This document shows positions 27,045 through 56,461 of a DNA stretch of 64,000 nt, one piece after another. The DNA is from Henricia sp. BOLD:AAB3569 (Eukaryota > Echinodermata > Asteroidea > Spinulosida > Echinasteridae), in NCBI GenBank assembly GCA_037783545.1, contig JBBELK010000317.1, forward strand, positions 868,001 to 932,000, in the 5' to 3' direction. The notes beneath the pieces are model-generated. The model was given only the letters and a program-made list of their open reading frames with translations. It was not told the DNA's origin and ran no database searches. Position 1 is the stretch's first letter; each line of letters starts with the position of its first letter. The translations under genes were made by a program, and so were the position numbers.

Positions 27045-30000
27045 ATGAAAACCACTCGGCGGAGATTGAGTGTTGACCATGAAATGGACAGCGTGTCGAA
27101 ACCAGTCAGGAGCTGGACATCCGGGGGTGCCTGGACCATCGTGGTCGTCATCTCATGTCACTTAATCTTTACACTCACTGGCATTCCACTTCAAATCGGC
27201 AACATCTTCTATTTGAATTGGAGGAATGAATTTAAGAGTAATTCTAGGGAAACTGCGGCCGTTCAGAGCGTTTGCTCAGCTACTGCTAATATCAGCGGTA
27301 AGTTTAGAATTAAAGCCCCATGTTTTGTCTTAACAGGTAGTTCTTAAATTTCTTACACAGCGAATTCTATGTCTGCCAACATCGCAATGCGCATTTAAAC
27401 TCGTTACCAGGAACTGTATAAACATTAATATACATATTAGGCAGGTAACGCTTTTGGCAACCAAGCCAGAAACACGTACAGGGTGAATCCCCTTCCTTTG
27501 CAGATGAATGCTCTCGGCAGTATACACAACACACCGACCTACGGCTTCACATGTATACACAACACACCGACCTACGGCTTCACATGCCATTCTGAGAATG
27601 GGGCAATATACCGATCCAGTAAGCCCCGCCACGTAGAAACGCGTTTGGCAACTTCAACGTTAAGGCCCTGTCACACCTTGACGTTTTAGCCAGCGTATGC
27701 TGACGTATGAAAATTTCTCTAAAACGCTGGCATACGCTGAACTGTCGATGTTTTTTTCAATTTTGAGCGTATACAAAGCGTATTCATAACGAGTTGGACG
27801 TATACATACCGTAGTAGTAACTTACATAGAACGTTTCCATAACGTTTAGATAACTTATAGGGCCTACCAACGAATAGGCCTACCAACGAATGCTTAGCGT
27901 GTTGCCGGCGTTCACAACTTATGCCCAACGACAGTCTAACTTATGCACAGCGCGCGGAGCGTATCGCCGACGATCACGTGTCGTAGCCTATAAAAGACTG
28001 CCGTTCGACGATTTAAATCATAACCGCACTAGACCATGGAGTCCGAGGAGTATACTGACGGGTTCCTTCTGTGAAGCCCATTCCAATACGCCATTATATG
28101 GTAGCTATTACATGTAGTTAGAAACACGTTTAGTAAGTTCTGTGGTCGTCCGGAACACGTCAAAACGTCTACATACGTTAATATGCGTTGGAGATAAGTT
28201 TGACATAGGTTCAAAGCACGTTACTCATAGGTTAGAAATAAGTTTTGGGTACGGTAGACATTATCTCGACGTATGTCGACTTATGATTAACTTACAAGTA
28301 ACGTGTGTGAACGTGTGTCAACGATCGTATTTCTATACCTACAACTTATGCGGGACTTATGAGCCACACGCTGGCATACGCCGAAAATTGTTGTGCATGC
28401 ACAGAATTGTTCGACGACCTCGCCTTACTACGACGTATACCAGCGTGTTTCAGCGTGCTCTTAACTTATACAGAACTTACCCATAACTTATTCGACGTAC
28501 GCCAGCGTATTCGCCAAATTTTTCATACGTCAGCATACACTGGCTAAAACGTGAATGTGTGACAAGGCCTTTAGACTTGATGTCAAGTCGGTAACTAGAC
28601 TGGTTAGTTCGTAAACCGCAGCAGCGTAGTCGCGAATGGACTGGGAACAAGTCTAGTAGTTTTGAGAAACCTGTCTGTCACTTTGTACACGGGCTATGGA
28701 GTTTGCTACTAGAATTGGACGTAGAGATCTGATTGGTCGAGACACGGGGCTTTATTAATATTCATGAAACATTTTCAAACAAATTTGCTTGTGAATTATA
28801 TTTCCTCAAGTAGTGGACCTATCAATATCCATTACTCCTGAATTACAATGAGAAATAATCATAGTAATAATTCGACCTTTCCGTTGGCCCAAGTTTTGGT
28901 TAAGAAATCAATTCAAAAATCGTAGCCGACAATTCTCTCTATTGTTGTGGGGGAGATTTTTTGTATACATGTATATTTTTTATTGTACACTTAATGTACG
29001 CAGTATGCTCGTGACTTAAAGAAGACGTTTCGCTAAAAGTTAAACGCAGTTATTCTGATTAAATATACATGTATTGCAAAAATGGTCTTACTGCATATTC
29101 ATTTAAACACCCCCTGGTAAAAAGTGGACGCTATACCAAACCGTAGTGCGGTGCGTGATTACCGTGATTGGTTTCTGCTATGGCAACAGCGTCAACACGC
29201 TAATATTGTCGCTCAATCAGGTTTCTCAAGTCGGTAATACGGGTCGAAACTCAAAATACACTGGTCAATAGAAAATAAGACTCAAGAAATCCTTGTGTTA
29301 TGTCTGTGTTATGTGTACGTTATTATTGATCCTTGACCATAATTACTGGGTATGTTTTGTTTGTCACGCTTCATTGGTTCCTTCTCAACAGACTCAAGAG
29401 CGGGAGCCTGTATAAAATCACTGTTCACATGCAGTGTTAGGTCAGTGCTGCAAAACATGAAAATGCTTTTGACAGTGAAATTTTTGATGGGATTTTCCTT
29501 TGTGGTGTGTGAGATTGGTGTTAGGGTGCATCTGAATAAAGTTCAGTGTGCGAGAGCATATGTCAGATGATCCAGGATGGCAGAACTCAGCGTAATGCTG
29601 CCACAGAGTTTAGCATTTTGAGATGCAGTCAAAGCTGCATCAGGAACGTTTGGAGACGATTCCAGGAGACCCAAGCTTACCGTAGACGACATGGTTCTGG
29701 TCGACCAAGGGCCACAACTGCTGTGGATGACCGATATTTGACACTTTCGGTAGTCTGCAAAACCCATTCCAGAGTGCAAGAAGGATCCAGAATGAGTTTA
29801 GACAAGCCACTCGCATCACTATCAGCACCCAAACTGTACGGAACAGACTAAGGGAAGTTGGCCTTCACTCTCGTGTACCACGTGTTGTCCCAAGAATGAC
29901 AGCTGAACACAGAAGACGTCGCCTTGAGTGGGCCAGGACACACTCTCGTTGGAATGTTGCACAGTGGTCCAACGTTCTGTTTACGGATCAGTCCCGTTTT

Positions 30001-33000
30001 ACTGTTGATCATGCTGATGGAGGTTAACGTGTGTGGAGAGGTGTAGGACAACGGTACAACCCTCAATTTACAGTTGCTGTTAACCGGTGGGGTGGTGGTA
30101 CCGTAATGGTGTGGGCAGGAATTTCCGTAACTGAGCGAACTGATTTGCACATCGTCCAAGGCAACATGAACGCGCTTTATTATCGTGACAATGTTCTTCA
30201 GGCCATTGTGCTGATGGTTAGAAACCGTGTGGGTGACGGATTCCTTCTCATGGATGATAACGCTCGTCCACACAGAGCCAGAATCGTTACAACCTTCCTG
30301 GAGGACAACAATATCCAGCGGATAGAGTGGCCAGCGATGTCTCCTGACCTTAATCCCATAGAGAACATTTGGGCAGTGTTGGGGACAAGGGTCAGAAATC
30401 GGAAACCCGCAGTAATGAACGTTGAAACCCTCACAGCAGCTCTCCAGGAGGAATGGAACAACATTCCTCAGGTGGTGATCCAGAACACCGTTGTTTCGAT
30501 GCGGAGACGTTGTCTGGAGTGTGTAAACCTGAGAGGTGCATTTACCCATTATTAATGAACAATGTGAGTCGTTATTTCTTCCAATAAAGCTGTTTTTCAA
30601 GAAAACGAATCTTCTGTTTTGTTGCATGCGAACAGTGATTTTATACAGGCTGAAGCGTGACAAACAAAACATACCCAGTAATTATGGTCAATGATCAATA
30701 ATAACGTACACATAACACAGACATTTCTTTTTCTCACTGGGGTTAAACATTTTGACAAGGATTTCTTGAGTCTTATTTTCTTTTGACCAGTGTATATTGC
30801 ACATAAAAACAGTTGTCGATCGTGTGCAGTAAAATGGCGTTAGCGACGGACAAAACACGACCGTATTACCGAATTGATTTCAAGTCTACTTGAACGTGCG
30901 CACAATGTTTGAATCACCAAAATACCACGTGATCACCATTGTCCTTCAAAATGATTGGTTGTTGGACATTTTGGGGGCGGGACTTAAACGTTTCTGGATC
31001 GGTATATTGGAGTTAAAAGTGCCTTGCTCAAGGGTGAAAGTACTCAGGCAAGTAAGGTACATGAGCATCCTGAGATGAAAGCACCTCAGGGTGTTTCCAC
31101 CGGCAGTTTGCAATTCTGTGACCTAAACCACTCAGCCACAGCAAGTAGTCAAAGAGGCAACACGGTAGTCCCTGATTCTGCCAGTCACTGCCTTGAGTAG
31201 TTTCGAACCCCAGCGCTTCAATCTGCAGTTTGCGATTCAGTGACCTAAACCACTCGGCCACAATACATGTATATTCTAAAAGGTGCCCTGATCTTGTCAG
31301 AGATGCCAGGCTAAATAAGCCTATATATATACTGTGGCTGAGCGGTTTGGTGCATCTTTCCCGGGATCTGTTTAATCCTACAGGTTGTAGGTTCGAATCT
31401 AGGTGGTGCCGTGGTGCGTGTGGCCTTGGGCAAGGCACTTTGCCATAAGTTGTCCCTCTCCGTCCAGAAGCAAATGGGTAGTGAATGTGTTATGTGTTAG
31501 ATTAGCTCATAAGCACCTAAAAGGCAGCCTTACGATAAGAACAATTTATCATAAATGTACTGTTGATGAAACAAGCGTGGGTGCTCTAATGCATACCACT
31601 TTGGCCACCTTACATTAAACTTTGAGGAAGGCCCTGCTGGTGAAGAATAACATGTTGGGTGATAGGGTGGTCTCAACCATCCCCGTTCTCTTCCAATGCA
31701 CTGTATAGCACAATAGAGATTTTGTCACTAATTTCAATTTTACTTAAAATGTTCAGGTCTCATCGGCGGAGTTTTGGTGAAACGGTACAGCTGCAGGTGT
31801 GTGGGAATGATAGGAGTGACACTGACGTGCCTGGGTCTATTTTGCAGTTCCTTTGTTGTGGACATCTTTCAGCTATACGTTACAGCGTTCATAATGGGTA
31901 TACAGTTGAAGTCTGAAGTATAAATACGTGTACACCACTACCATCATCACCCAAAATGGTTAACAGGACTAACCGAACCATTGTAAGGTGTGCAAGCTAT
32001 GTTTTAAGTACTGCATGCACGTGAGGAATTCCACAAAATCAAGAATTTAGTCAAGACTGTTACAAAAATGGTGTAAGCACACCAGTTTTAGCACTTGGTT
32101 GCATACAGTTGTATTTATACTTCCGACTTCAACTGTATATAGTCTGTGTTAAAACTGGTGTGCCTAAACTTGCGTTGTCACCATATTTGTAACAGTCTTT
32201 ACTAAAGTCGTGATTTTGTGGAATTCCTCAAGTGCTTGCAGTACTTAAACATAGCTTGCACACCTTGCAATGGTTCGGATAGTCATGTTTATCATTTTGG
32301 GTGATGATGGTAGTGGTATAGATGTATGTAAACGTCCGACTTCAACTGTACATGTGAAGAGTAATTAGTTTTTCTCGGACAAAGAAGACTCTATTATGTC
32401 TTGCGTTATAGAACAGTTCAACTGGCCCCCTGAATTGGTTCTATAGAGTCCAAACTACTGGAAGGGCACCAGACTAATACTTTGCGTTCCAATCCTTGTC
32501 TTCAGGGCGAGATTTGGAACGCCTCTAGCAACTTTTCAATCAGCCGACTGATTAATTATAAAGAGGCCTAAATGAACCGTTCTGACACGTCTATAATATA
32601 GGAGTGCACAACATCACGTGTGTCGTACTTCGATACCGATTGGCTCTTTCCCTAGAATACTAAAACCAACTCCTAGTATAGCTGCCAGCCCTCCTGGATT
32701 TTGCAACAGACCTCCTACAAAATGATTGATACCATGACTCCTGACACAGATAAGTTTATAGATGTGTCTTAAGTCAGGAAATAAGAATACATGTACTTTC
32801 TATATGTCTTCTTTAAAATCCGGAAAAGCTGGCAGCTGAGCAGTATCCATTTATGTTGGTATTCACACTACTCATAATGGTCATGCGTGGAGGTAAAACT
32901 TTAAAGAGCACACATGCATGCTTTTACAAAAGGCCACACAAATTCAACTTGCCGATTATTAAACTGTCATTATAGCGCTTTTCAAGTGAGCAAGGGTAGG

Positions 33001-35597
33001 CGGATATTTGAAAACCTGATATCCAGAGAGCACAATAACAAATGCATACAGAATTGGTAGAATAACGGCTGGGAATTAGCTTTTGGGTGGGAGCGGCGTT
33101 ATAATGAGAGCTATTTACTGAAGATCGTGTTTTGTCTCTCCCACAGGTATCGGAGCTGGAATTGTATTCAACGCCGTCCTCGTAGCAGTTATCGTTTATT
33201 TCAAGAAGGGATACAAGATTGCCAATGGGATTGCGTCTTCTGGAATTGGCACAGGGTCTCTGGCGGTGCCACCTCTGGTTCTACATCTCATGGAGCGCTA
33301 CGGCTGGAGGGGAGCCATCCTCATCAGCTCCGCAATCATGGCAAACACCTTCGCTCTGTTTGCGGTTTTCAGGACTCCTCGGCGTTTTAGTAAGCTGAAC
33401 AAGACAACATCTGCCTCGGTTGGTGATGATACAGAGGCCGGTCTGCAGTTGACAAATTTGATCCCAGATACATTGGGTGACAACTCTGGAGTTTGTGACG
33501 AGTATGATTCTTTGGAGGAAGGACGACGTGTTCGTGACCAGCCCGTTCTCGGCAGTCACGACGATATTGATTCAGTTCACTCTCTTTCCCACAAGAGCTT
33601 CCCAACATCCACAAGATTGATTCTTGCATTGCAAAGGTTGGCGTCAATTCTTGGGTTGACGGTCTTCCTCAGGAGTTATCGTTTTGCTCTTCTTTGTCTA
33701 TTCGCGATTCAGTTCGGTGTTGTGTACTACGGACCAGTAGTTTTCTTTATCTCACGTGCTCAGGACATCGGTACAGCGCCTTCTGTCGCCGCGCTTTTGC
33801 TCAGTATTTACGGCACAGGCAATTGCCTCGGTCGTCTTGTAAACGGATTTTTAATCAGTTGGCGATTGTCTTCAGAGTGTGTTGGCTCAATCTCTTTGGT
33901 TGTGGCTTGTGGCTCATTGCTGACCATGAACATAGATGGCTACGGCTTCTTAGTGGCTTCGTCTTTTCTCTACGGGTTTTCGATTGGCGTCATGGTGGGA
34001 ATAACCGTAATTCTGACCAAGCAATATGTGGGCGTGGTGCAATTCCCTGTCTGTATCGGTTTGTACAATACTGGCGTTGGAATCGGAGCTTTTCTTGGAC
34101 CTGTTATATCAGGTAATACTCCTGCATACTGTTGACACCAATTGATGCAAATGATCACTTCCATTTCACTCAACACAAATTCTGTGGTATAGTGGTATAA
34201 CTAGTCTTGCCCGGAGTAAGATGACGGGTGGTGGCTTCATTGTGTGGTACCGCGGCCGAGTGGTTTGGGTCATTGACTCGCAGTCATAGGTGAAAACTCG
34301 GAGTTGCGAGTTCGAACCTCTCCCCCGACTGCGGCACATGTGCCCTTGAGCATGGCACTTAACCACACTTGCTCCATCCTTCGGAAGGGATGCAAAGCCG
34401 TTGGTCCAGTGTGTTAGGTAACGGTAACGCACTTTAAAGATCCCATGGCATTCTTTCGTGAAGAGCAAGGGGATTCCCCGGTGTCTCTGGACGTTTCTAA
34501 TTCTTCATGGGTTTCCTAACGCTTGCGAGTGACAGTGCAATGGGCACTTTTTAAGGAATCCTTGGTATGAATACCAGAAAGAAATAATAATGGATAATTT
34601 CCAGCATATGCAGCCCGATATGTCACAGAGGGTAACCTTTTCCCAAAGAAAGTTTAAAGGAATTCCTTTTAAGTTTTAAGGGGAGTGTGTTGAGGTATAG
34701 GGGCAGGAGGGGGAGTCCCTTTGTCACATATCGTGCTGCATGGGTATCCATTCCGTTGCTTATTGGTCGGTGGTGTTATCCTGTTACACATCACAAAGTT
34801 GGACGGCACCAACAGATTTCCATAGAACTATGTCTATCCGCACGTACATGTAAGCTGTCTCAGGTCAAGGAACAATCATGCAGTGGCGCACCCAAGGGTC
34901 GGGGTCCTGGGAGTAGCTTGAGCCCCCGCCCCCAAGAGGTTTTAATTTTGTTTCTCTATTTTCTGAAATAAAAGGGCAATGGGCAATCAGTGTTTGACAG
35001 GCATATGGAGCAGGGATGTAGTCGAGTCAATCACAAGTCCTCACAAGCCTTAACGAGTCCACCACAAGTTCCTGGGTCTTAATTCAAGTCAAAAGCTATT
35101 CAAATGAACTCCGACAAAGGCATTCTTTTGTGCATTTTCATCCCTTGCTTCTTGTTACTGGACTTGTGACGGATTTGCGGGGGACTTGTCACGGACTTGT
35201 GATTTTATCGGCTCTGGACTTGTGATAGACTTGTAATGGACTCGACTACCCTGCTGTGGATATCGGCATTGACGACGTCGTCGTAGGATGGCCACAGCAG
35301 AACGCTTGGATTTAACACTATAAGTATGCATCATGGGACAAGTTGTGTCAGCTTGTGCGCCACTGTCCACAAGCTTAATGTAGTTAGATAAAGGCAAATA
35401 ACATTTTCGATAACATTAATTTTAAATTTTTTTTTTGGTTTTCCCCCACAGGGTGGCTCTATGACGCCTCACAAGATTACAGACTGATCTTCTACGTGTG
35501 TGCCGGAATCTGTCTCATCTGCGCAGTCCAAGTGATCCTGATGCCCCAGTTGAAACGATTAGAGCCAGGAATGAACCTCGAACCATCAGAAAGATAG
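27045..35597 (+). CDS. SLC16/monocarboxylate transporter-like protein, array copy 1
   Basis: Coding exons 27045-27297, 31757-31897, 33147-34112, 35452-35597 (253+141+966+146 nt, all introns phase 1, GT-AG) give 501 residues. Family evidence: SGGAWTIVVV at the start of TM1 (family norm DGGWGW), LIGGVLVKRYSCR after TM2, YFKKGYKIANGIASSGIGTG in TM5, a ~90-residue acidic cytosolic loop (about 207-295) between TM6 and TM7, GTGNCLGRLVNG in TM8, and GGWLYDASQDY before TM12. In TM8 the Arg corresponding to the catalytic Arg of MCT1 is kept (about R361), while the neighbouring Asp is Asn (about N357), as in several non-lactate SLC16 members, so the substrate cannot be inferred. Expected in the plasma membrane. 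The ATG is followed closely after an acceptor-like TTTACAG (27019), so a non-coding 5' exon is likely. Intron 1 is enlarged to 4.5 kb by a MITE and a Tc1 element. Confidence 0.93.
27664..28567. mobile_element. ~900-bp MITE-like element saturated with ACGTATGC/CTTATG motif
   Basis: Ends GGCCCTGTCACACCTTGACG and complementary ...CGTGAATGTGTGACAAGGCC. The left flank is TTAA and the right TTTA, consistent with a decayed TTAA duplication. The whole interior repeats CAGCGTATGC, ACGTATAC, AACTTAT and complements. Frames of 75 and 114 codons inside it are motif-driven. In intron 1 of transporter copy 1 only. Confidence 0.8.
28571..29256. other. intron 1 of transporter copy 1: nothing recognised
   Basis: AT-rich, no convincing frame or repeat with a clear boundary. 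Not present in the shorter intron 1 of copies 2 and 3, so it arrived with, or belongs to, transposon-derived DNA unique to copy 1. Confidence 0.4.
29259..30792 (+). mobile_element. Tc1-like transposon, 1.53 kb, long TIRs
   Basis: TA at 29257-29258 and 30793-30794 bracket ends CACTGGTCAATAGAAAATAA and (complement of right end) CACTGGTCAAAAGAAAATAA. The inverted repeats extend about 165-190 bp: 'gacaaggatttcttgagtc' and 'gggtatgttttgtttgtcac' are found in both. The left arm has ~30 extra bases after CACGCTTCA. Present only in transporter copy 1. Confidence 0.93.
29546..30555 (+). pseudogene. Tc1 transposase, DD34E, frameshifted
   Basis: Order of parts: helix-turn-helix segment (MIQDGRTQRNAATEF...SQSCIRNVWRRFQETQ), the GRPR-like linker (HGSGRPRATTAVDDRYL), then after a frameshift near 29755 the catalytic domain with VLFTDQSRF (first Asp), LMDDNARPHRAR (second Asp) and SPDLNPIENIW (Glu). 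Exactly 34 residues separate the second Asp from the Glu, the DD34E spacing of Tc1. An in-frame TAA at 30025-30027 also breaks it. It therefore cannot make an active enzyme as it stands. Confidence 0.93.
31120..31262 (-). mobile_element. tRNA-Leu/Ser-like SINE, minus strand
   Basis: Minus strand reads TGTGGCCGAGTGGTTTAGGT (A box) then GGGTTCGAAACT (B box), followed by a second A-box-like TGTGGCTGAGTGGTTTAGG at about 31122-31142. Orthologous copies sit at 39650-39793 and 50508-50647 in the other transporter introns, so insertion predates the gene duplications. Confidence 0.7.
31332..31600 (+). mobile_element. tRNA-derived SINE, plus strand
   Basis: CTGTGGCTGAGCGGTTTGG (A box) and GGTTCGAATCTAGG (B box, about 31390) precede the body CCTTGGGCAAGGCACTTTGC shared with the 1518-1813 SINE. 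The 3' limit is approximate. Orthologues: about 39859-40135 and 50715-50995. Confidence 0.75.
31903..32348. mobile_element. Tc1-type palindromic MITE at transporter intron 2 donor
   Basis: TA at 31901-31902 and 32349-32350. Left end CAGTTGAAGTCTGAAGTATA; right end (complement) CAGTTGAAGTCGGACGTTTA. Copies 2 and 3 read GGGTATACATGAAGAG straight across, the exact empty site. The element is one ~235-bp unit (itself bounded by inverted CAGTTGAAGTC ends, to 32139) followed by an inverted copy of that unit. It starts five bases into the intron. The first six intron bases GTATAC are unchanged because the element begins with C. Confidence 0.93.
32351..33146. other. rest of transporter copy 1 intron 2
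   Basis: Matches 40436-41207 and 51290-52106 in copies 2 and 3 with small indels. No reading frame or named repeat seen. The acceptor reads TCTCCCACAG. Confidence 0.6.
34243..34593 (+). mobile_element. full-length tRNA-derived SINE in intron 3, copy 1
   Basis: GGCCGAGTGGTTTGGGTC (A box) and GCGAGTTCGAACCTC (B box), then GTGCCCTTGAGCATGGCACT, GTTGGTCCAGTGTGTTAGGT, GGGGATTCCCCGGTGTCTCT, and a 3' end GGAATCCTTGGTATGAATAC followed by CAGAAAGAAATAATAA. Orthologues at 42209-42540 (5' deleted) and 53205-53555. Confidence 0.85.
35012..35252. mobile_element. CAAGTCC/GGACTTG foldback, intron 3, copy 1
   Basis: CAGGGATGTAGTCGAGTCAA at the left pairs with GACTCGACTACCCTG at the right. The interior has tandem ACAAGTCC then GGACTTGTGA motifs. 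Present at the equivalent place in all three transporter genes, so older than the array. Confidence 0.8.
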
Positions 35598-35776
35598 CCA
35601 CGCGCTTTCACCGTAAAAACTGTATTGTCTGGTAAATTAGGAACTAACAAAATTTGAGAGATTATATTTCAACTTTTCAAGCAAAAACGTAAGAGGAATC
35701 AAAATCAGAGAAATTGTATTTATGTGTGTGTTTATTTAGCTTTTTAGCTTAGTAAATGAGAAAAATATAAAACGAC

Positions 35777-36155
35777 CAGTCTGATGATACGCAGATATAC
35801 GTGTTTGTCAAACCTCCCGATCGTGACAGTGCCATCGATCGCCTCACAAAGTGTGTCAACGCTATTCGGACGTGGATGACTGAAAACAAACAAAACGGAG
35901 TTGCTCCACGTGCGCTCGAGGTTCGCTAAACATGTGCCTGGTGTCGGCATTACCGTTGGCAACTCGGACATTGTTTCTTCTTAAGATGTTCGAAATCGTG
36001 GAGTTATTCTGGACAATAGTCTCACATCGATGCTGTCATGGTAATGCCTGGCTGTATTTTTAACCTTTTAATCTTGGTTTGTATGCACTTTGTATTTTTA
36101 GTGATGTTAAGTGCATTGAGGCCGTAGCTATATAAGTTCGAGGTAATAACATTTA
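35777..36155 (+). pseudogene. CR1/L2-like reverse transcriptase fragment, internally deleted (copy 1)
   Basis: Starts at SDDTQIYVFVKPPD, the YADD-type catalytic box of a non-LTR reverse transcriptase, then continues IDRLTKCVNAIRTWM. The adjacent bases GACAATAGTCTCACATCGAT run directly into ATGGTAATGCCTGGCTG, skipping about 850 bp that are retained in copy 3 (54715-55990). Plus strand, 5'-truncated. Sits in the 3' flank, about 180 bp after the stop codon. Confidence 0.75.
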
Positions 36156-36567
36156 ATTTTACTCAGTGATTTTAATCCCGTGATTTATATTTATACATTC
36201 CCTATTAAATTTATAAAAGCCTCGATGGTGCTACATGGAGTATATTATTCTTATAGTTTATTTTTTGTCTGTTTATTGGACGTCGATTTGCAGACCGAAG
36301 GCCGAACTGCATAAAACCTAAAGTGTTTTCCATCTAAACATCGAGATCTGAGACACTGAGTAGTCCTCTTACTCTTCATGAATAACATAATGTTTTGGGA
36401 TCCTTTAAATGTGTTACACAATCAACGGCTTGACTTCCTATTAAAGGATGGAGCAGTTGTGCTAAGAGTGCCTTGCAAGGGTACTTGGTACACTACTGCC
36501 GATCTCGCAACACCACGTTTTCAGCTGAATGTTGCGAGTCAACGGACTCTTGCATATACATTTTACG

Positions 36568-36753
36568 GTCTAACTTTGTTTGGTTCCTGTACGTGCGCGC
36601 CGTCGACATTGCACCGTGTGGACAGGGAACTAGTTTATGTGCAGCTGGGTGCCTTTTGTTACATACAGCTGGCACATAAACTAGTTCCCTGTCCACACGG
36701 TGCAATGTCGACCGCGCGCACGTACACGAACCAAGCAACGTAATTAGACCGCC
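36568..36753. repeat. long hairpin, ~80-bp arms
   Basis: Left arm GTGCGCGCCGTCGACATTGC ... GGGAACTAGTTTATGTGC (36568-36645) pairs almost perfectly with 36663-36753, around an 18-nt loop. Copy 2's flank (44570-44610) keeps only one short arm end, so the hairpin was gained here or lost there. A frame of 121 codons crosses it and is an artefact. Confidence 0.8.
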
Positions 36754-36779
36754 TTTCACAGAGACTAACATTTACGTTA

Positions 36780-37768
36780 TGTTCGGTTCGTCCATTGATC
36801 GACGTTTGTAACCAAGTCGCTCTTTAGTCGTTCTGACTGACTGCCAGTCGATCTTTCGATTCGCAGTGAATCCAATCGCTTCAAATCTTTCATTAGAACT
36901 TCGGCCGTACTTAAAGGATCGTGACCATTTTTACCGCCCGCTTTTTCCCATGGATTTTTGAAATTTTGATACCATATCATGTGTCACATTTTTCTTATTA
37001 CAATTCTGAAATTTCGCGCTCTCAATCCGTATATTTTCTGGGATATCGTAAAAAATCCAACGAAGTTTAGTAAACTAATTTATCTGGTTACGTAAAGCAG
37101 TGCAGTAATAATGTTTGCTGATGTTTTTCTGTGTTACTACATTTGCAAACAGAAGCAAACGTCTGGAATACAATCATGTGATCACTATTGGCTGGCTCTA
37201 ATCACATGACCTGAAACTGGTTCCTGATTGGTTCAGACATAAAACATGAGCGAACAAATGTTTGCCAATAGCAGCATGTTCAAACACGAGCAAACACAGT
37301 TTGGTGCAGTTTGCTGTTGTTTGCTAATGTTTTATGTGCCGTCCACACCTGCAAACGTTTCTGAAAAACATTTTTATAAACTTGAAGTTTGGTCATGTTT
37401 TATGTGAAATGTTTGCCAGTGTGGACGAGTACGCGCAGACTGATAACCGATTGTTCCCATTATAATTATTGCATGTAACAGTGTCATAGTCCAACTATTG
37501 TTTGTTCATGCAAACTGCTATATTTTCTTAATCTCGGTATATAGGGCGGCCGGTACAACACAGACTAGGTGACATCATTCATAGTGGTGGACTGGCAGAG
37601 TTTTGGAGACTGGGCAACTGCTGTATATCTAGTACAACTACAAGGAGTGAGCTAACCCTGGAATGATTTTATAACCTTAAAGGAATATAGTGTATGCTAT
37701 ATATGCAAGCATCCAGTGAAATAAGGACTGCCGGTGCAAGGGTATAATAAATTGTGACTATACACCTG
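36780..37768. other. spacer between transporter copies 1 and 2
   Basis: Includes the dispersed repeat at about 36930-37100 and a GTTTGCnn/GCAAAC-rich stretch (37105-37440) with motifs like CATGTTTTATGTG iterated. The string GCAGCATGTTCAAACACGAG (37271-37290) is the intact target of the 3.25-kb insertion seen between copies 2 and 3. No gene. Confidence 0.55.
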
Positions 37769-37872
37769 GGGCGCGTTTAATAGCGCAATACGTATGCATA
37801 CCGACAATACGGTGAAGGTATATACGAAAATACCCGTACCAGCGTACGTATTGTGCTATTGAACGCGCCCCT
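37769..37872. mobile_element. 104-bp foldback, GGGGCGCGTT ends
   Basis: GGGGCGCGTTTAATAGCGCA pairs with the complementary TGTGCTATTGAACGCGCCCC. TACGTAT motifs fill the centre. The orthologous copy upstream of the third gene is at about 48622-48724. Confidence 0.8.
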
Positions 37873-38264
37873 GCGTGGCCACTCCATTTTTCCTTAGTGC
37901 AACCTGGACAAGATGAAATGCGAAATGTTGTTGTTGTTGTTGTATTTTTGTATGGCATATTCGGCAACTAAGGCCCTTTATGCCATCAACTATACAGTTT
38001 TAGCTTTAACTATACTATATTATCAACTTGAGATGACGAAGAAGGAGTTGCAGTTTTAGAAGTGGGAGGAAAACCCCCAGAGAAATGCCCCAGGGGAAAA
38101 CCCACGCGGTCAAGTAGGGACTGAATGCGAAATGGACACAGAGTCTGCCTTTTTATAGTCGAGTTTATTTACAAAGGTATTTTCTTTTGATTGTGTAGGG
38201 TATAGGCCTATTCAAGGCTTGGGTACTGATAACCAACGACAGCAAAATCGGAAAATAAAATTAA

Positions 38265-38710
38265 AGTTGCACTGTCCGTGTTTGCGTAAAGGGATTTAAA
38301 AAAAATTTTACACTAGCGAACGAAATTAGAAAGCTTACATGTCCCTGTAATGAAACAAACAAAATAATAATAAAAACTTAAAATTCCGACGTCGGGAATA
38401 GACTACTAACTTGAAAACGTCACCCTGTGTGTGATCAAGGTTACTGGGTCTACACTAAAACCAGTGAACTGTTTTAGTGTAGACAAAACTGGCGTTTCAA
38501 ATTACCAACGAATGTTTAGACCCAATTACCATGGTAACCGACGTCACACTTTAGTATTGAGATACAAGCCTTATCTTGAAAGGATGGATTTTTACGTTCT
38601 TGGTACCAAATGAAATGTGATAGTTTTTTATATATTCTAGAAAAATAGCAATTTTACTTTAACAAATACAATTTGACGCTCAAATCGGCATAAAATCGGA
38701 CAGTGCAACT
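38265..38710. mobile_element. TTAA-flanked MITE upstream of transporter copy 2
   Basis: TTAA at 38261-38264 and 38711-38714. Ends AGTTGCACTGTCCG and complement. Inside, a perfect 13-bp hairpin (38448-38460 with 38472-38484). Ends about 135 bp before the ATG. Same element at 49118-49563 before copy 3; partial copies at 26440-26580 and 56913-57090. Confidence 0.85.
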
Positions 38711-43556: not shown

Positions 43557-43735
43557 CCACGCGCTTTTACCGTAAAAACTGTATTGTCTGGTAAATTAGG
43601 AACTAACAAAATTTGAGAGATTATATTTCAACTTTTCAAGCAAAAACGTAAGAGGAATCAAAATCAGAGAAATTGTATTTATGTGTGTGTTTATTTAGCT
43701 TTTTAGCTTAGTAAATGAGAAAAATATAAAACGAT

Positions 43736-44125: not shown

Positions 44126-44894
44126 ACATTTAATTTTACTCAGTGATTTTAATCCCGTGATTTATATTTATACATTCCCTATTAAATTTATAAAAGCCTC
44201 GATGGTGCTACATGGAGTATATTATTCTTATAGTTTATTTTTTGTCTGTTTATTGGACGTCGATTTGCAGACCGAAGGCCGAACTGCATAAAACCTAAAG
44301 TGTTTTCCATCTAAACATCGAGATCTGAGACACTGAGTAGTCCTCTTACTCTTCATGAATAAAATAATGTTTTGGGATCCTTTAAATGTGTTACACAACA
44401 ACGGCTTTACTTCCCATTAAAGGATGGATCAGTTGTGCTCAGAGTGCCTTGCAAGGGTACTTGGTACACTACTGCCGATCTCGCAACACGTTTTCAGCTG
44501 AATGTTGCGAGTCAACGGACCCTTGCATACATTGTACTTTAATTTACATACATTTACGTAGTCTTTGTGAAAGACGGTCTAACGTTGCTTGGTTCCTGTA
44601 CGTGCGCATCAGGTGTCATAAATTTCGCGCTCTCAATCCGTATATTTTCTGGGATATCGTAAAAAATCCAACGAAGTTTAGTAAACTAATTTATCTGGTT
44701 ACGTAAAGCAGTGCAGTAATAATGTTTGCTGATGTTTTTCTGTGTTACTACATTTGCAAACAGAAGCAAACGTCTGGAATACAATCATGTGATCACTATT
44801 GGCTGGCTCTAATCACATGACCTGAAACTGGTTCCTGATTGGTTCAGACATAAAACATGAGCGAATAAATGTTTGCCAAAAGCAGCATGTTCAA

Positions 44895-47800
44895 TAGTCT
44901 TTCGGAAAGACTGCCTTTTTGCGCGCAATACACGATGTACATAGACTATTCATCATTGGCCGCCAGAGGGCGCACCTGAAATACAGTCGAAAAGACAGTC
45001 TTTCATATTCCGTATAAATCGCTCGCAAAATACCGAGCGAATTCCTGGCATACCTTTGCGTGACACGTTGAAATGCGTGACGTCATCTAATTTCCATAAT
45101 TCACAACAGCTCTGGTCTGTCTGGTACCCAGAGTACACACTGGACAGGACAGTGCATACAAATGTCGCTGCTTTTCCAGTCGCTGATCGATCGATCGATC
45201 AGCAGTCAGCAGGCAAACATGATATGAGGCAAACACGTTGTCCACGGACAAAGCTATCTTGCGCGTTGCACTCAGTGGCTCGCCGGTACCGTCGTCCGGG
45301 CCTTACCGCTTGCCGGCCTGCGTTGCTCGTATACGGTCGGGTTAGACCCGTGAACGGGTCTACGGTCGGTTGTGATGATTGGGCGGCCAGTGAAGACGAA
45401 GCATTTCGTTCCAAGTTGATAATCGAAAAGTTCAAAGGCTATCAAAGACTGGCATTTAGAGATTTTCTTAGGGCATGTTCTGCTTGGTCACGATTTTTTT
45501 TCATCGCTTACGCGTGGAGGAATAAAACGACTGGCATTGTTTTCTTCTCCTCTATACTATGGCATGCTTTTCATATTATTGGCTTCGGTAAAAAAAAAAG
45601 TGCTAAACGATTTCAGAGAAGTTATCCACTACTATTTTTCCCTAAAATGACTTGCAAGCATCAGTTAGTTTAGATATGATAGAAAATTTAGGAGTGAATT
45701 AATCTGAGTGAAGAACCACCCACTTTCTTAAAAAGTACTACTAGTAATTTCACTCACTATCACATGCTTTGTACACAATGTTTGAAGTATTATAAATTGT
45801 TGGGCAGATTTTTAAAAATTTCAAAATGCCCTTATTAAATTTTTGTAAGCTTAATGTTGAAAGGAGTCTCTCAAAGCCACATGGTTTTACAAAAGTAATT
45901 GTACATTTTCTAAAGTCAAATATGACCCATTTGATTTTCATTTAGGCCAACAACAAATAAGGCAAATTTTTGTGACCCAAGGATCGACCTTTTACGGGCC
46001 TATTTAAAACAATACTTTTTTTCTGATTCTTCGTGCATGTTTTTGTTTTTACAGCAAGCAGAATTGCAGAAGATTAATTAGAGCAACTTGCTTGCATAAG
46101 CCTCCGAAAATATACTGGAATAACGTTTAATGGAACAAATTTAAATTTGATGTTTATTAGTTTACTAAATGTTTAAAATGTCACCCTTTTCAGTGCTCTG
46201 AGGAGAATGCTTTGAGAAGGCCCATTAATTTTGTGGATATGAAGCTGTTTTTACGAATTCCAGGGAACAACAGCATACTACTTTGTAGATAGGACAGAAG
46301 CCCTTGAAGGAAATTTGCACAGTTTGGTTAACTTTAAAAAAAATGGAAATGTTTGTCAACATTGTCTGATTCATTAGTTCAATATTTGACTTCAAGTGCA
46401 GAAATAATTTGAATTTTTAGGTTGAATTCCATATCCGACCACTATAAACCTCTTTATTTTATATTAAATGAAAAATAAACAATGCATGTTAGAACAAGTT
46501 TGATGATAAAAATGAGAAATAAAATTATGACATGTCTGATTTTAGGCCCCCAGCCTGGATTTCCATTGTTATAAAACCATGTAAAATTTTAGTTTAGTTG
46601 TAAAAACCATGGTGTAAAAACTAAGAAAGAGACATTTTCATGATTTTTAAATTTTTTTCCCACTGCTGTCCAACATTGTCTAAGGAAATGTTCGTCAACA
46701 TTGTCTGATTCATTAGTTCAATATTTCACTTCAAGTGCAGAAATAATTTAAATTTTTAGGTTGAATTCCATATCCGACCACTATAAACCTCTTTATTTTA
46801 TATTAAATGAAAAATAAACAATGCATGTTAGAACAAGTCTGATGATAAAAATGAGAAATAAAATTATGACATGTCTGATTTTAGGCCCCCAGCCTGGATT
46901 TCCATTGTTATAAAACCATGTAAAATTTTAGTTTAGTTGTAAGAACCATGGTGTAAAAACTAAGAGAGAGAAATTTTCATGATTTTTAAATTTTTTCCCA
47001 CTGCTGTCCAACATTGTCCAAGGAAATGTTCGTCAACATTGTCTGATTCATTAGTTCAATATTTCACTTCAAGTGCAGAAATAATTAGAATTTTTAGGTT
47101 GAATTCCATATCCGACCACTTATAAACGTCTTTATTCTGTAAATGAAAAATAAACAATGCATGTTAGAACAAGTTTGATGATAAAAATGAGAAATAAAAT
47201 TATGACATGTCTGATTTTAGGCCCCCAACCTGGATTTCCATTGTTATAAAACCATGTAAAATTTTAGTTTAGTTGTAAAAACCATGGTGTAAAAACTAAG
47301 AGAGGAATTTTCATGATTTTTTAATTTTTTCCCACTGCTGTCCAACATTGTCCAAGGAAATGTTCGTCAACATTGTCTGATTCATTAGTTCAATATTTCA
47401 CTTCAAGTGCAGAAATAATTTAAATTTTTAGGTTGAATTCCATATCCGACCACTATAAACGTCTTTATTTTGTATTAAATGAAAAATAAACAATGCATGT
47501 TAGAACAAGTTTGATGATAAAAATGAGAAATAAAATTATGACATGTCTGATTTTAGGCCCCCAGCCTGGATTTCCATTGTTATAAAACCATGTAAAATTT
47601 TAGTTTAGTTGTAAAAACCATGGTGTAAAAACTAAGAGAGAGAAATTTTCATGATTTTTAGATTTTTTCCCACTGTTGTCCAACATTGTTCAATGTTTTG
47701 GCCATGGCATTGGGTCTTAATCTACACGGACAGGCACCCCCGGCCGGGGACAGGAAGTCACCGGGCTGGGCTGGGCGCGCACTCGTACCGAGAAATGCCG

Positions 47801-48144
47801 CTTCTCGGCAGGCAATGCACCACGGTCACTGCACGAAAACGGCCCGATATCATTTTCGCGCGGCACGGTGAATCACTAGCACTGCACACGTACAAAATGT
47901 ACACGGCAAGTTACCATCCCACATGACCTAATTATGGAGGCATCGCTTTCTCTTCTACGCAGGCGCCCATAATTTTTGACCTTGCTGTTTAATTATTCAT
48001 GTGCTTCCATTAAGGTTATCGAACTTTTTTCTTACGGAGTAATCAAGACCGAGTTTTCGAGTTCACGTTGTAAGTGTAGGTACGCCCTCTGGCGGCTAAA
48101 ATGAACAATGTGGGGATCGCGAACTCGGTCTTGCATCAAGACTA
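44895..48144. mobile_element. 3.25-kb DNA transposon with 9-bp duplication, no transposase seen
   Basis: CATGTTCAA occurs at 44886-44894 and 48145-48153; the homologous spacer between copies 1 and 2 has it once (37274-37282). Ends are TAGTCTT and AAGACTA, with sparse further inverted similarity for about 85 bp. Each end can form a hairpin of about 90-100 nt (GGAAAGACTG with CAGTCTTTC at the left, CAAGACCGAG with CTCGGTCTTG at the right). A 9-bp duplication fits Mutator-like elements, but this is only one clue. The 205-codon frame at 45056 shows no transposase motif. Contains the 338-bp tandem array. Confidence 0.85.
46345..47691. repeat. 338-bp tandem repeat, four units
   Basis: Units begin GGAAATGTTYGTCAACATTG at 46345, 46684, 47022 and 47356 (periods 339, 338, 334) and are highly similar throughout. 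AT-rich, each with GCCCCCARCCTGGATTTCC. Later units are closer to each other than to the first. Lies wholly inside the 44895-48144 element. Confidence 0.92.
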
Positions 48145-49117
48145 CATGTTCAAACACGAGCAAACACAGTTTGCCGTCCACACCTGCAAGCGTTTCTGAA
48201 AAACATTTTTAAAAACTTGAAGTTTGGTCATGGTTTGCCAGTGTGGACGATGCTTTAAGTACGCGCAGACTGATAACCGATTGTTCCCATTATAATTAAT
48301 GCATGTAACAGTGTCATAGTCCAACTATTGTTTGCTCAAACTGCTATATTTTCTTAATCTCGGTATATAGGGCTGGTACAACACAAACTAGCTGACATCA
48401 TTTATAGTGGTGGATTATTCAGAATCTTTATTGGTGTGGTTGACTGGCAGAGTTTTGGAGAATGGGCAACTGCTGTATATATAGTACAACTACAAGGAGT
48501 GAGCTGAAACCCTGGGATGATCTCTATAACCTGAAAGGAATATAGTGTATGATATATGCAAGCATCCAGTGAAATAAGGACTGTCGGTGCAAGGGTATAA
48601 TAAATTGTGACTATACACCTGGGGCGCGTTCAATAGCGTAGTACGTATGCATACCGACGATACGGTGAAGGTATACGAAAATACCCATATACCAGCGTGC
48701 GTATTGTGCTATTGAACGCGCCCCTGCGTGGCCACTCCATTTTTTCCTGAGTGCAACCTGGACAAGATGAAATGCGAAATGTTGTTGTTGTTGTTGTATA
48801 TTTTATGGCATCTTCGGCAACTAAGGCCCTTTATGCCATCAACTATACGGTTTTAGCTTTAACTATACTATATTATCAACTTGAGATGACGAAGAAGGAG
48901 TTGCAGTTTTAGAAGTGGGAGGAAAACCCCCAGAGAAATGCCCCAGGGTAAAACCCACGCGGTCAAGTAGGGACTGAATGCGAAATGGACACAGAGTCTG
49001 CCTTTTTATAGTCGAGTTTATTTACAAAGGTATTTTCTTTTGATTGTGTAGGGTATAGGCCTATTCAAGGCTTGGGTACTGATAACCAACGACAGCAAAA
49101 TCGGAAAATAAAATTAA
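48145..49117. other. spacer upstream of transporter copy 3
   Basis: Homologous to 37274-38264 upstream of copy 2, with small deletions (for example of 'gtgcagtttgctgttg'). Contains the foldback at about 48622-48724. No gene. Confidence 0.7.
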
Positions 49118-49563
49118 AGTTGCACTGTCCGTGTTTGCGTAAAGGGATTTAAAAAATAATTTACACTAGCGAACGAAATTAGAAAGCTTACATGTCCCTG
49201 TAATGAAACAAACAAAATAATAATAAAAACTTAAAATTCCGACGTCGGGAATAGACTACTAACTTGAAAACGTCACCCTGTGTGTGATCAAGGTTACTGG
49301 GTCTACACTAAAACCAGTGAACTGTTTTAGTGTAGACAAAACTGGCGTTTCAGATTACCAGCGAATGTTTAGACCCAATTACCATGGTAACCGACGTCAC
49401 ACTTTAGTATAGAGATACAAGCCTTATCTTGAAAGGATGTATTTTTACGTTCTTGGTACCAAATGAAATGTGATAGCTTTTTATATATTCTAGAAAAATA
49501 GCAATTTTACTTTAACAAATAAAATTTGACGCTCAAACCGGCCTAAAATCGGACAGTGCAACT
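49118..49563. mobile_element. TTAA-flanked MITE upstream of transporter copy 3
   Basis: Orthologue of 38265-38710: TTAA at 49114-49117 and 49564-49567, same ends, same 13-bp hairpin (49301-49313 with 49324-49336). Confidence 0.85.
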
Positions 49564-49701
49564 TTAAGTAACGACAAAGATAAAGTTGTATTTTCGCCCC
49601 AACGTATTTAAAGGTTTTTTTTTTACAACCAACGTTGGGTGAAAAGTTGGCAAAATTAACCCATTATTGTTTACAGTGCACATTTCCTAACCGAATAGGT
49701 T

Positions 49702-52700
49702 ATGAAAACCACTCGGCGGAGATTGAGTGTTGACCATGAAACGGACAGCGTGTCGAAACCAGTCAAGAGCTTAACATCCGGGGGTGCCTGGACCATCGTG
49801 GTCGTCATCTCATGTCACTTAATCTGTACACTCATTGGCATTCCACTTCAAAGCGGCAACATCTTCTATTTGAATTGGAGGAATGAATTTAAGAGTAATT
49901 CCAGGGAAACTGCGACCGTTCAGAGCGCTTGCTCAGCTACTGCTAATATCGGCGGTAAGTTTAGAATTAAAGCCCCATGTTTTGTCTTAACAGGTAGTTC
50001 TTAAATTTCTTATACAGCGCATTCTATGTCTGCCAACATCGCAATGCGCATTGAGACCAGGAACTGTCTGAACATTAAAGGTACACACCGGCCTACTGTT
50101 TACATGATTTAGTGATATAGCAGCATTGACAATACTTTTTTGATGGTCGTTATCAAAAAAGATCATCAAAATATCCCCTAATTTACTAAAGAAGTGCAAA
50201 ATTAACAAAAACGGTTAAAAGACGGGTTATACGCTTACCAGCCGTTGCAACTACGCGCGAGCCTCACGACTTTGTCACAAACGATTCGCTCTTCTCCTGC
50301 TGCTCAGGATATCTCAAATTTTCTGCTCACGATTTCACTGGACAGCCCGGACGACCGAATATGAATTTCCGTTTTCTTTTGAGGAGTTGGCATCATGTTT
50401 TTTTCTTCACGAACGTACACCGGAGCAATACGCCCGTGATGTGTGTGTGTGCACTCAGGCTATTTGCCGTGCTGCGCGGGGCAAATATCCGACACTCCAC
50501 ATATCTGACATAAACCACTCAGCCACAGCTAGTAGTCCAAGAGGCAACACGGTAGTCCCTGATTCTGCCAGTCACTGCCTTGAGTGGTTTCGAACCCTAG
50601 CGCTTCAATCTGCAGTTTGCGATTCAGTGACCTAAACCATTCGGCCACAGTACATGTATATTCTAAAAGGTGCCCTGATCTTGTCAGAGATGCCAGGCTA
50701 AATAAGCCTATATACTGTGGTTGACCGGTCTGGTGCATCTTTCGCGGGATCTGTTTGATCGTACACGTTTTAGGTACGAATCTAGGTGGTGCCGTGGTGC
50801 TAGTGGCCTTGGGCAAGGCACTTTGCCATAAATTGTCCCTCTCCGTCCAGAAGCAAATAGGTAGTGAATGTGTTATGTGTTAGATTAGCTCATAAGCACC
50901 TAAAAGGCAGCCTTACGATAAGAACAATGTATCATAAATGTACTGTTGATGAAACAAGCGTGGGTGCTCTAATGCATACCACTTTGGCCACCTTATATTA
51001 AACTTTGACGAAGGCCCTGCTGGTGAAGAATAACATGTTGGGTGATAGGGTAGTCTCAACCATCCCCGTTCTCTTCCAATGCACTGTATAGCACAACATA
51101 TATTTTGTCAATAATTTTAATTTTACTTGAAATGTCACCAGGTCTCATCGGCGGAGTTTTGGTGAAACGGTACAGCTGCAGGTGTGTGGGAATGATAGGA
51201 GTGACACTGACGTGCCTGGGTCTATTTTGCAGTTTCTTTGTTGTGGACATCTTTCAGCTATACGTTACAGCGTTCATAATGGGTATACATGAAGAGTAAT
51301 TATTTGTTTTTCCCGGAAAAAGAAGACTCTATCACGTCTTGCGTTATAGAACAGTTCAACCGGCCCCCTGAATTGGTTCTATAGAGTCCAAACTGCTGAT
51401 TGGAAGGGTACTAGACTAATGCTTTGCGTTCCAATCCTTGTCTTCAGAGCGAGATTTGGAACGCCACTAGAAACTTTTAAATCAGCCGACTGATTAATTA
51501 TAAAGAGGCTTGAATGAACCGTTCTGACACGTCTATATAGGAGTGCACAACATCACGTGTGTCGTACTTCGATACCGATTGGCTCTTTCCATAGAATGCT
51601 AAACCAACTCCTAGTATAGAGATGCCAGTCCTCTCGGAATTTGCAACAGACCTTTTGCAAAATTATTGATATCATGACTCCTGACACAGATAAATTTATA
51701 GATGTGTCTAAAGTCAGGAGATCAGCCTACTTTCCATGTGTCTTCTTTAAAATCCGGGAAAGTTGGCAGCTCTGCTGTATCCATTTATTTGGGTATTCAC
51801 ACTACTCATTGCGTTCATGCATGGTGGTAAAACTTTAAAAAGCACACGTATACGTGCACTATGCTTTAACAAAAGGCACACGAGTTTAACTTGCCGCTTA
51901 TTAAACTGTCATTGTAGCGCTTTTCAAGTGAGCAAAGGTAGGCGGATATTTAAAAACCTGATATCCAGAGAGCACAATAACAAATGCATACAGAATTGGT
52001 AGAATAACGGCTAGGAATTAGCTTTATATCAGGAAAAGCTTTTTGGTGGGGGCGGCGTTATAATGAGAGCTACTTTACTGAAGATCGTATTTTGTCTCTC
52101 CCACAGGTATTGGAGTTGGAATTGTATCCAACGCCGCCCTCGTAGCAGTTATCGTTTATTTCAAGAAGGGATTCAAGATTGCCAATGGGATTGCGTCTTC
52201 TGGAATTGGCACAGGCTCTCTGGCGGTGCCACCTCTGGTTCTACATCTCATGGAGCGCTACGGCTGGAGGGGAGCCATCCTCATCAGCTCCGCAATCATG
52301 GCAAACACCTTCGCTCTGTTTGCGGTTTTCAGGACTCCTCGGCGTTTCAGTAAGCTGAACAAGACAAAATCTGCCTCGGTTGGTGATGATACAGAGGCCG
52401 GTCTGCAGTTGACAAATTTGATCCCAGATACATTGGGTGACAACTCTGGAGTTTGTGACGAGTATGATTCTTTGGAGGAAGGACGACGTGTTCGTGACCA
52501 GCCCGTTCTCGGCAGTCACGACGATATTGATTCAGTTCACTCTCTTTCCCACAAGAGCTTCCCAACATCCACAAGATTGGTTCTTGCATTGCAAAGGTTG
52601 GCGTCAATTCTTGGGTTGACGGTCTTCCTAAGGAGTTATCGTTTTGCTCTCCTCTGTCTATTTGCGATTCAGTTTGGTTTTGTGTACTACGGACCAGTAG

Positions 52701-54535
52701 TTTTCTTTATCTCACGTGCTCAGGACATCGGTACAGCGCCTTCTGTCGCCGCGCTTTTGCTCAGTATTTACGGCACAGGCAATTGCCTCGGTCGTCTTGT
52801 AAACGGATTTTTAATCAGTTGGCGACTGTCTTCCGAGTGTGTTGGCTCAATCTCTTTGGTTGTGGCTTGCGGCTCATTGCTGACCATGAACATAGATGGC
52901 TACGGCTTCTTAGTGGCTTCGTCTTTTCTCTACGGGTTTTCGATTGGCGTCATGGTGGGAATAACCGTAATTCTGACCAAGCAATATGTGGGCGTGGTTC
53001 AATTCCCTGTCTGTATCGGTTTGTACAATACTGGCGTTGGAATCGGAGCTTTTCTTGGACCTGTTATATCAGGTAATACTCCTGCATACTGTTGACACCA
53101 ATATATGCAAATGTAACTTCCATTTCACTCAACACAAATTATGTGGTATAGTGGTATAACTAGTCTTGCCCGGAGTAAGATGACGGGTGGTGGCTTCATT
53201 GTGGGGTACCACGGCCGAGTGGTTTGGGTCATTGACTCGCAGTCATAGGTGAAAACTCGGGGTTGCGAGTTCGAACCTCTCCCCCGACTGCGGCACATGT
53301 GCCCTTGAGCATGGCACTTAACCACACTTGCTCCATCCTTCGGAAGGGATGCAAAGCCGTTGGTCCAGTGTGTTAGGTAACGGTAACGCACTTTAAAGAT
53401 CCCATGGCATTCTTTCGTGAAGAGCAAGGGGATTCCCCGGTGTCTCTGGACGATTCTAATTCTTCATGGGTTTCCTAACGCTTGCGAGTGACAGTGCAAT
53501 GGGCACTTTTTAAGGAATCCTTGGTATGAATACCAGAAAGAAATAATAATGAATAATAAAAAGAGTTGCAATTTCCAGCATATGCAGCACGATATGTCAC
53601 AGAGGGTACCCTTTTCCCAAAGAAAGTTTAAAGGAATTCCTTTTAAGTTTTAAGGGGGTGTGTTGAGGTATAGGGGCAGGAGGGGGTATCTATTCCGTTG
53701 CTTATTGGTCGGTGGTGTTATCCTGTTACACCATGACACAAAGTTGGACGGCACCAACAGATTTCCATCGAACTATGTCTATCCGCACGTACATGTAAGC
53801 TGTCTCAGGTGGCGCACCCAAGGGGTGGGGGTCTTGGGGTAGCTTGAGCCCCCGCCTCCAAGAGGTTTAATTTGTTTCTCTATTTTTTGAAATAAAAAGC
53901 ACAATGGGCAATCAGTATTTGACAGGGATATGGAGCAGGGTTGTAGTTGAGTCCATCACAATTCCTCACAAGCCTTAACGAGTACACCACAAGTTCCTGG
54001 GTCTTAATTCAAGTCACAAGCTATTCAAATGAACTCCGACAAAGGCATTCTTTTGTGCGTCTTCATCCCTTGCTTCTTGTTACTGGACTTAAGACGGATT
54101 TGCGGTGGACTTGTCACGGACTTGTGATTTTATCGGCTCTGGACTTGTGATGGACTTGTGATAGACTTGTAATGGACTCGACTACCGCATGCTGTGGATA
54201 TCGGCATTGACGACGTCATCGTAGGATGGCCACAACAGAACACTTGGATTTAACACTATAAGTATGCATCATGGGACAAGTTGTGTCAGCTTGTGCGCCA
54301 CTGTCCACAAGCTTAATGTAGTTAGATAAAGGCAAATAACATTTTCGATAACATTAATTTTTAATAATGTTTTTGGTTTTCCCCCACAGGGTGGCTCTAT
54401 GACGCCTCACAAGATTACAGACTGATCTTCTACGTGTGTGCCGGAATCTGTCTCATCTGCGCAGTCCAAGTGATCCTGATGCCCCAGTTGAAACGATTAG
54501 AGCCAGGAATGAACCTCGAACTATCAGAAAGATAG
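49702..54535 (+). CDS. SLC16/monocarboxylate transporter-like protein, array copy 3
   Basis: Coding exons 49702-49954, 51142-51282, 52107-53072, 54390-54535; again 253, 141, 966 and 146 nt, phase 1, 501 residues. Differences from copy 1 in exon 3 are few (GVGIVSNAALVAV, KGFKIAN, NKTKSAS, RLVLAL, QFGFVYY). In exon 2 it has CSFFVVD where copies 1 and 2 have CSSFVVD. The last exon reads NLELSER instead of NLEPSER. The N-terminus has PVKSLTSGGAW. Intron 2's acceptor lies in TGTCACCAG rather than ATGTTCAG. All family motifs and the TM8 Arg/Asn pair are intact. Confidence 0.92.
53205..53555 (+). mobile_element. full-length tRNA-derived SINE in intron 3, copy 3
   Basis: Orthologue of 34243-34593 with A and B boxes intact (GGCCGAGTGGTTTGGGTC, GCGAGTTCGAACCTC) and the same 3' end. 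Confidence 0.85.
53938..54188. mobile_element. CAAGTCC/GGACTTG foldback, intron 3, copy 3
   Basis: Orthologue of 35012-35252. It carries one extra GGACTTGTGATGGACTTGTG unit, showing the iterated motif changes in number between copies. Confidence 0.8.
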
Positions 54536-56460: not shown

Positions 56461-56461
56461 A

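Follow-up and report, generated by a model that had tools for sequence, protein, structure and literature searches.

We studied a window of 64,000 nucleotides from Henricia sp. BOLD:AAB3569 (Echinodermata; Asteroidea), namely positions 868,001 to 932,000 of contig JBBELK010000317.1 in assembly GCA_037783545.1; all positions below count from the first letter of this window. It carries three direct tandem copies of a four-exon SLC16-like gene on the + strand (copy 1: 27045-35597, copy 2: 38847-43556, copy 3: 49702-54535). Which two of the copies are most alike changes along the unit. Our tests support a real mosaic, for which exchange between the copies appears to be the best reading, because the unit cannot be fitted with one set of relative branch lengths and the nearest relative also switches in introns and flanks. 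The array probably arose by an unequal crossing-over that turned two copies into three, with at least one later tract of gene conversion between copies 1 and 3.

Structure of the gene array

A first reading, made from the letters alone (the sequence-only reading), had described three intact copies with equal exon lengths and open frames, and this was confirmed. The exons measure 253, 141, 966 and 146 bp in every copy (1506 bp and 501 amino acids in total) and share their phases, all 9 introns are bounded by GT-AG, and each frame stays open for 501 codons up to a common TAG. Used as a tblastn query against the window (E up to 0.01), the copy-1 protein gave 12 matches, which are the four exons of the three copies. 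The window contains no Ns. The exons, all on the + strand, are as follows; the evidence is splice sites and open frame unless stated otherwise.

27045 to 27297, +, copy 1 exon 1 (open frame, GT donor and alignment)
31757 to 31897, +, copy 1 exon 2
33147 to 34112, +, copy 1 exon 3 (also MFS_1 match)
35452 to 35597, +, copy 1 exon 4 with stop
38847 to 39099, +, copy 2 exon 1
40288 to 40428, +, copy 2 exon 2
41208 to 42173, +, copy 2 exon 3
43411 to 43556, +, copy 2 exon 4 with stop
49702 to 49954, +, copy 3 exon 1
51142 to 51282, +, copy 3 exon 2
52107 to 53072, +, copy 3 exon 3
54390 to 54535, +, copy 3 exon 4 with stop

Tests for a mosaic

Breakpoints were sought with a segmentation procedure of our own and a permutation test modelled on 3SEQ. 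In a whole-unit MAFFT alignment the 3.7-kb intron-1 block put the 5' part of copy 1 in the wrong place, and we therefore aligned five trusted blocks, each homologous across the three copies, with 5144 ungapped columns in all. The three-way counts omit the non-homologous intron 1 (copy 1 27429-31118 versus copy 2 39224-39649), short block edges and flanks present in two copies only. Each variable site was labelled by the odd copy, which was copy 1 at 113 sites, copy 2 at 97 and copy 3 at 105, with 4 three-base sites set aside. Sites with the same label within 5 bp were then collapsed, leaving 255 sites.

If the copies had a single history, the odd-copy labels would be mixed along the sequence at any local rate, and the observed labels were not mixed. 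For the 255 collapsed sites the gain with three segments was 33.7, compared to at most 17.0 among 300 permutations, and with any number of segments from two to six the gain exceeded all 300 permutations. Single-history sets simulated with shared rate variation and clustered mutations (n = 300) reached at most 15.0. A check of the kind proposed in the sequence-only reading, aligning the units and testing for breakpoints, thus rejects a single history. Its claim that no single branching order explains the copies stands only in part: homogeneity of the site patterns is rejected, but three sequences have one unrooted tree, so that no topology is rejected.

When only noncoding sites were used, none of 1000 permutations matched the observed gain at two, three or four segments (three segments: 27.8 versus a maximum of 21.4). 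Without the last block the corresponding numbers were 1, 0 and 2 of 1000 (three segments: 19.5 versus 18.1). Selection on the protein as the sole cause of the mosaic was rejected, since noncoding sites show the same switch. This switch between segments, noncoding sites included, also favours gene conversion or unequal crossing-over, which had been proposed from the letters. Clusters in the alignment were likewise rejected as the source of the signal: the three-segment result survived both the 5-bp collapsing and the removal of the last block together with the copy-1 changes clustered at 32650-32970 (0 of 300 permutations).

The amino acid differences from which the mosaic was first proposed are all present. 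Exon 1 groups copies 2 and 3 (IGIPLQSG, ETATVQS) against copy 1 (TGIPLQIG, ETAAVQS), and exon 3 groups copies 1 and 3 (LTNLIPD, GVMVGITVILTKQ) against copy 2 (LKNLIRD, GIMVGITLILTRQ). They count for less than the rest of the evidence: the odd-copy patterns of exons 1 and 3 differ with p = 0.029, and the exon argument alone is weak. The exon 3 grouping is borne mainly by replacements in copy 2, and relaxed or altered selection on copy 2 may contribute there.

Zones along the unit

Guided by the segmentation, we divided the unit into four zones. They are given in copy-1 coordinates (no strand), with the number of collapsed sites at which copy 1, 2 or 3 is odd; as their limits were set after segmentation, the p-values for zones are descriptive (chi-square for the whole table: p = 3e-14).

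26439 to 33010, 5' zone, copies 2 and 3 nearest: 61/27/28
33011 to 34680, central zone, copies 1 and 3 nearest: 12/41/16, clearest in noncoding 34272-34680
34681 to 35597, even zone, no nearest pair: 11/13/16
35598 to 36383, 3' zone, copies 1 and 2 nearest, with two common gaps relative to copy 3: 2/3/25

The noncoding divergence follows the same pattern. Copies 2 and 3 are 3.4% apart within the 5' zone compared to 5.2% elsewhere, and between 38110 and 39859 in copy-2 coordinates they are 0.4-3.2% apart. Copies 1 and 3 differ at 15 of 703 noncoding positions (2.1%) in the central zone versus 184 of 3087 (6.0%) elsewhere (Fisher, 9e-6). For copies 1 and 2 we counted 5 differences in 776 positions (0.6%) in the 3' zone and 167 in 2962 (5.6%) elsewhere (Fisher, 6.6e-12).

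Junctions and 3' flank

The sequences between the copies are homologous to each other, apart from insertions (strand not applicable):

36384 to 38416, junction between copies 1 and 2 (pieces match junction 2/3)
44364 to 49269, junction between copies 2 and 3 (pieces in common with junction 1/2, from which it differs by insertions)
44895 to 48144, insertion of 3.25 kb within junction 2/3, bounded by a 9-bp repeat (CATGTTCAA) and with four copies of a ~339 bp repeat inside (comparison with junction 1/2)

Four pieces of junction 1/2 match junction 2/3: 36384-36566 with 44364-44537, 37009-37283 with 44620-44894, 37275-37303 with 48145-48173 and 37337-38416 with 48172-49269. The empty site of the 3.25-kb insertion lies on the copy 1 side, at 37271-37305. 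Upstream of copy 1 the similarity begins at 26439 and downstream of copy 3 it ends at about 56184. Both features expected of unequal crossing-over are thus present, namely homologous junctions between the copies and outer flanks that are unique to the end copies.

Relative to copy 3, copies 1 and 2 have in common a 13-bp gap (copy 3 54978-54990) and an 871-bp gap (copy 3 55006-55876), as seen in the sequence with BLAST blocks as alignment. The sequence-only reading had grouped copies 1 and 2 by a shared ~850-bp deletion inside a retrotransposon relic. The common gap is there. Because the reading frame runs on in copy 3, both gaps are presumably deletions in such a relic and not insertions into copy 3. 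A Pfam search of the relic gave RVT_1 below threshold for one piece (E 0.063) and no match for the next piece.

Further downstream a dispersed repeat occupies 56298-57804 and 62747-64000 (93-96% alike). A 98-bp piece of it (56908-57004) resembles the 5' flank of copy 2 at 38261-38358, and this flank may therefore hold a repeat and not old downstream sequence.

The central tract

In the noncoding part of the central zone copies 1 and 3 are 2.1% apart, compared to 4.9% for copies 1 and 2 and 4.8% for copies 2 and 3. At 34272-34680, within intron 3, the counts of odd sites are 4/18/1 for copies 1, 2 and 3. This stretch overlaps a repeat:

34245 to 34600 (copy 1), +, repeat resembling a short interspersed element, present in intron 3 of each copy; copy 2 is without ~105 bp of its head (alignment)

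Other copies of this repeat in the window allowed us to polarise sites in three short pieces, of which one holds 2 sites derived in copies 1 and 3, another 3 sites derived in copy 2, and the third none. At the 2 former sites the window copy 12422-12467 agrees with copy 2, so the derived base is the one common to copies 1 and 3.

The nearest pair thus switches in noncoding sequence and the divergence drops locally, as expected of gene conversion. Conversion is best shown within intron 3. It is also likely in the 3' third of exon 3, where copy 2 is odd at 11 of 15 sites, and uncertain upstream of that third.

Origin of the array

We consider the following history probable. A two-copy array would have grown to three by unequal (non-allelic homologous) crossing-over. 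The middle copy would be a chimera, with a 5' part descended from the copy on the right and a 3' part descended from the one on the left. Later, one or more tracts of gene conversion would have homogenised copies 1 and 3 across the 5' half of intron 3, probably extending into exon 3. One crossing-over at the two-copy stage predicts the 5' grouping of copies 2 and 3, the 3' grouping of copies 1 and 2 and the homologous junctions, and the gaps common to copies 1 and 2 fit the same event. Conversion is needed for the central tract, as a single crossover cannot bring copies 1 and 3 closest. The order of the events and the direction of the conversion are what we infer from these patterns.

Several observations weigh against this history or against the mosaic on which it is built. 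For coding sites alone the segmentation was not significant (two segments: 69 of 1000 permutations; three: 184; four: 117). The cluster at 32650-32970 supplies part of the 5' signal, and without it and the last block 4 of 6 3SEQ-like runs weaken to p-values of 0.025-0.27. Divergence between copies 2 and 3 is 8.4% at 37607-37858, so not all of the 5' side is young. At 34.7-35.6 kb the three pairs are equidistant (4.7-5.0% in noncoding sequence), which is unexpected from a single young crossover. The silent sites of exon 3 (3/10/8 odd in copies 1, 2 and 3) do not group copies 1 and 3, and 3 of the polarised repeat sites are derived in copy 2, one of which lies at a ragged edge of the alignment. 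Moreover, the comparison of genes is confined to the three copies.

Some of these observations are what other explanations predict. One or two unequal crossing-overs without any conversion, with the central likeness of copies 1 and 3 due to a faster copy 2, would fit the outer zones. Copy 2 indeed holds 13 of the 20 assignable replacements in exon 3, the silent counts there do not group copies 1 and 3, and 3 of the 5 polarised repeat sites are derived in copy 2. Nevertheless we regard this explanation as unlikely: a faster copy 2 leaves the distance between copies 1 and 3 unchanged, so that acceleration is insufficient to explain the drop to 2.1% and the 4/18/1 pattern at 34272-34680, and the 2 sites derived in copies 1 and 3 also speak against it. 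It is possible, though we would put it forward only tentatively, that three old copies about 5% apart were repeatedly converted, each pair being homogenised over one stretch, and that copy 2 is not chimeric. The star-like divergence at 34.7-35.6 kb and the existence of a low-divergence stretch for each pair agree with this, but the low stretches of copies 2 and 3 and of copies 1 and 2 sit toward the outer ends and continue into the shared junctions, as is expected of crossing-over. Our confidence in repeated conversion overlaps with that in the favoured history of crossing-over followed by conversion, as the two share the conversion step.

An assembly artefact, in which alleles of a highly heterozygous animal were set in tandem, seems highly unlikely. 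Some stretches are only 0.4-1% apart, and a difference of 0.4-1% lies within the range of allelic variation. However, the window is free of Ns, intron windows differ by up to 13-16%, the 3.25-kb insertion with its flanking target-site repeat distinguishes the two junctions, and copy 1 bears its own Tc1-type and inverted-repeat insertions. Finally, the copies have specific sets of amino acids in the first membrane segment (copy 1 versus copies 2 and 3) and, in copy 2, in the residues that the last part of exon 3 encodes. An ongoing, selection-shaped exchange that reshuffles these sets of exons 1 and 3 into combinatorial transporter variants strikes us as extremely improbable.

Selection on the coding sequence

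The ratio of replacement to silent substitution rates (dN/dS) was 0.60 for copies 1 and 2, 0.41 for copies 1 and 3 and 0.41 for copies 2 and 3 (Fisher p 0.107, 0.02 and 0.005, respectively). There are 23 synonymous and 32 replacement changes that can be assigned to one copy, which gives a dN/dS of about 0.45 on the tree. The excess of silent changes has a binomial p of 0.004, or 0.035 once corrected for transitions and transversions. Variable columns are rarer in coding (60 of 1506) than in noncoding sequence (259 of 3638, p = 1.4e-5). We found no length change in the 1506 coding bp and 48 gap runs in the aligned blocks; by simple arithmetic the noncoding rate would predict about 20 in the coding part. 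Replacements prevail in exon 1 (12 versus 2 silent changes), where the counts are too small for interpretation. The replacement and silent changes in exon 3 were 13 and 10 for copy 2, 4 and 3 for copy 1 and 3 and 8 for copy 3, plus one three-way site. Constraint on the genes is weak but present. The earlier suggestion that selection is probably acting thus gains modest support from the dN/dS on the tree and the constant length.

The encoded protein

All copies match MFS_1 (E 4.5e-42, 1.8e-40 and 2.6e-42 for copies 1, 2 and 3). Among the 13 matches of copy 1 in the PDB (E up to 0.001), 12 are MCT1, MCT2, MCT8 or MCT10 and the remaining one is a bacterial L-lactate transporter (6g9x, known as SfMCT). 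The genes are thus predicted to encode a divergent SLC16-like MFS transporter, SLC16 being understood in the broad sense; their function as transporters is likewise a prediction. The known SLC16 motifs are [D/E]GG[W/F][G/A]W in the first helix and YFxK in the fifth. By eye, the position of the former reads SGGAW or SGGVW, differing from the strict motif, and YFKKGYKIANG (copy 3: YFKKGFKIANG) resembles the latter.

Copy 1 aligns collinearly with MCT1, MCT2, MCT8 and MCT10 and belongs, like them, to the MFS transporters. It differs from the family in its TIGR00892 (monocarboxylate transporter) score of 146.5 bits, far under the curated cut-off of 586.1. The set of Lys38, Asp309 and Arg313 found in proton-coupled transporters of the MCT1 type is incomplete in copy 1: in the printed PDB alignments these residues align to Leu, Asn and Arg, so that the first two are replaced and the Arg is kept. 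MCT1 D309N is reported to have shown no lactate transport at the tested pH, and K38M to have required acidic pH (PMC9982067). Proton-coupled carriage of lactate by the proteins of the array therefore appears unlikely, and with the Lys and Asp of MCT1 replaced, transport without proton coupling would be the likelier mode.

Other elements in the window

Two insertions are found in copy 1 only:

29252 to 30799, +, Tc1-type element in intron 1 (DDE_3 match, inverted ends)
31903 to 32348, no strand, 446-bp inverted-repeat element at TA in intron 2 (inverted repeats)

Intron 1 of copy 1 also holds an element of ~0.9 kb with 55-nt inverted ends (27662-28571). Outside the array, a single uninterrupted open frame of 510 amino acids with immunoglobulin (Ig) domains (Ig_3, I-set, V-set, Ig_2) lies at 59917-61449 on the + strand. 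The repeats at 24164-24409 and 57162-57407 are in opposite orientation and 93% complementary; their direct match is ~74%, hence they are partly palindromic. Local duplications at 20853-22855 are 97-100% alike (20853-20989 with 21614-21750, 21470-21615 with 22710-22855 and 21791-22041 with 22070-22320). A borderline Rfam tRNA at 15302-15373 on the - strand (29.4 bits, cut-off 29), where ARAGORN reported none, is possibly a tRNA-derived repeat.

Comparison with known systems

Among the papers searched, we found none that joins monocarboxylate transporters, SLC16, tandem arrangement and gene conversion. A tandem expansion of monocarboxylate transporter (MCT) genes is described in a mollusc, the razor clam Sinonovacula constricta, whose MCT gene clusters are ascribed partly to tandem duplication (PMC11939762).

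The array is a case of ordinary concerted evolution of tandem genes, cleanly visible and with a well supported mosaic. Tandem gene copies evolve in concert by unequal crossing-over and gene conversion, and the array resembles such systems in that the nearest relative switches along the unit, the junctions share pieces and noncoding sequence is involved. It opens no new mechanism. Its value lies in being a compact case that separates by position crossing-over (outer zones and junctions) from conversion (inner tract), and it calls for caution with such arrays, in which orthology calls and dN/dS vary by exon. It differs from the known systems only in that, within an array of three copies, each of the three pairs is nearest in one zone.

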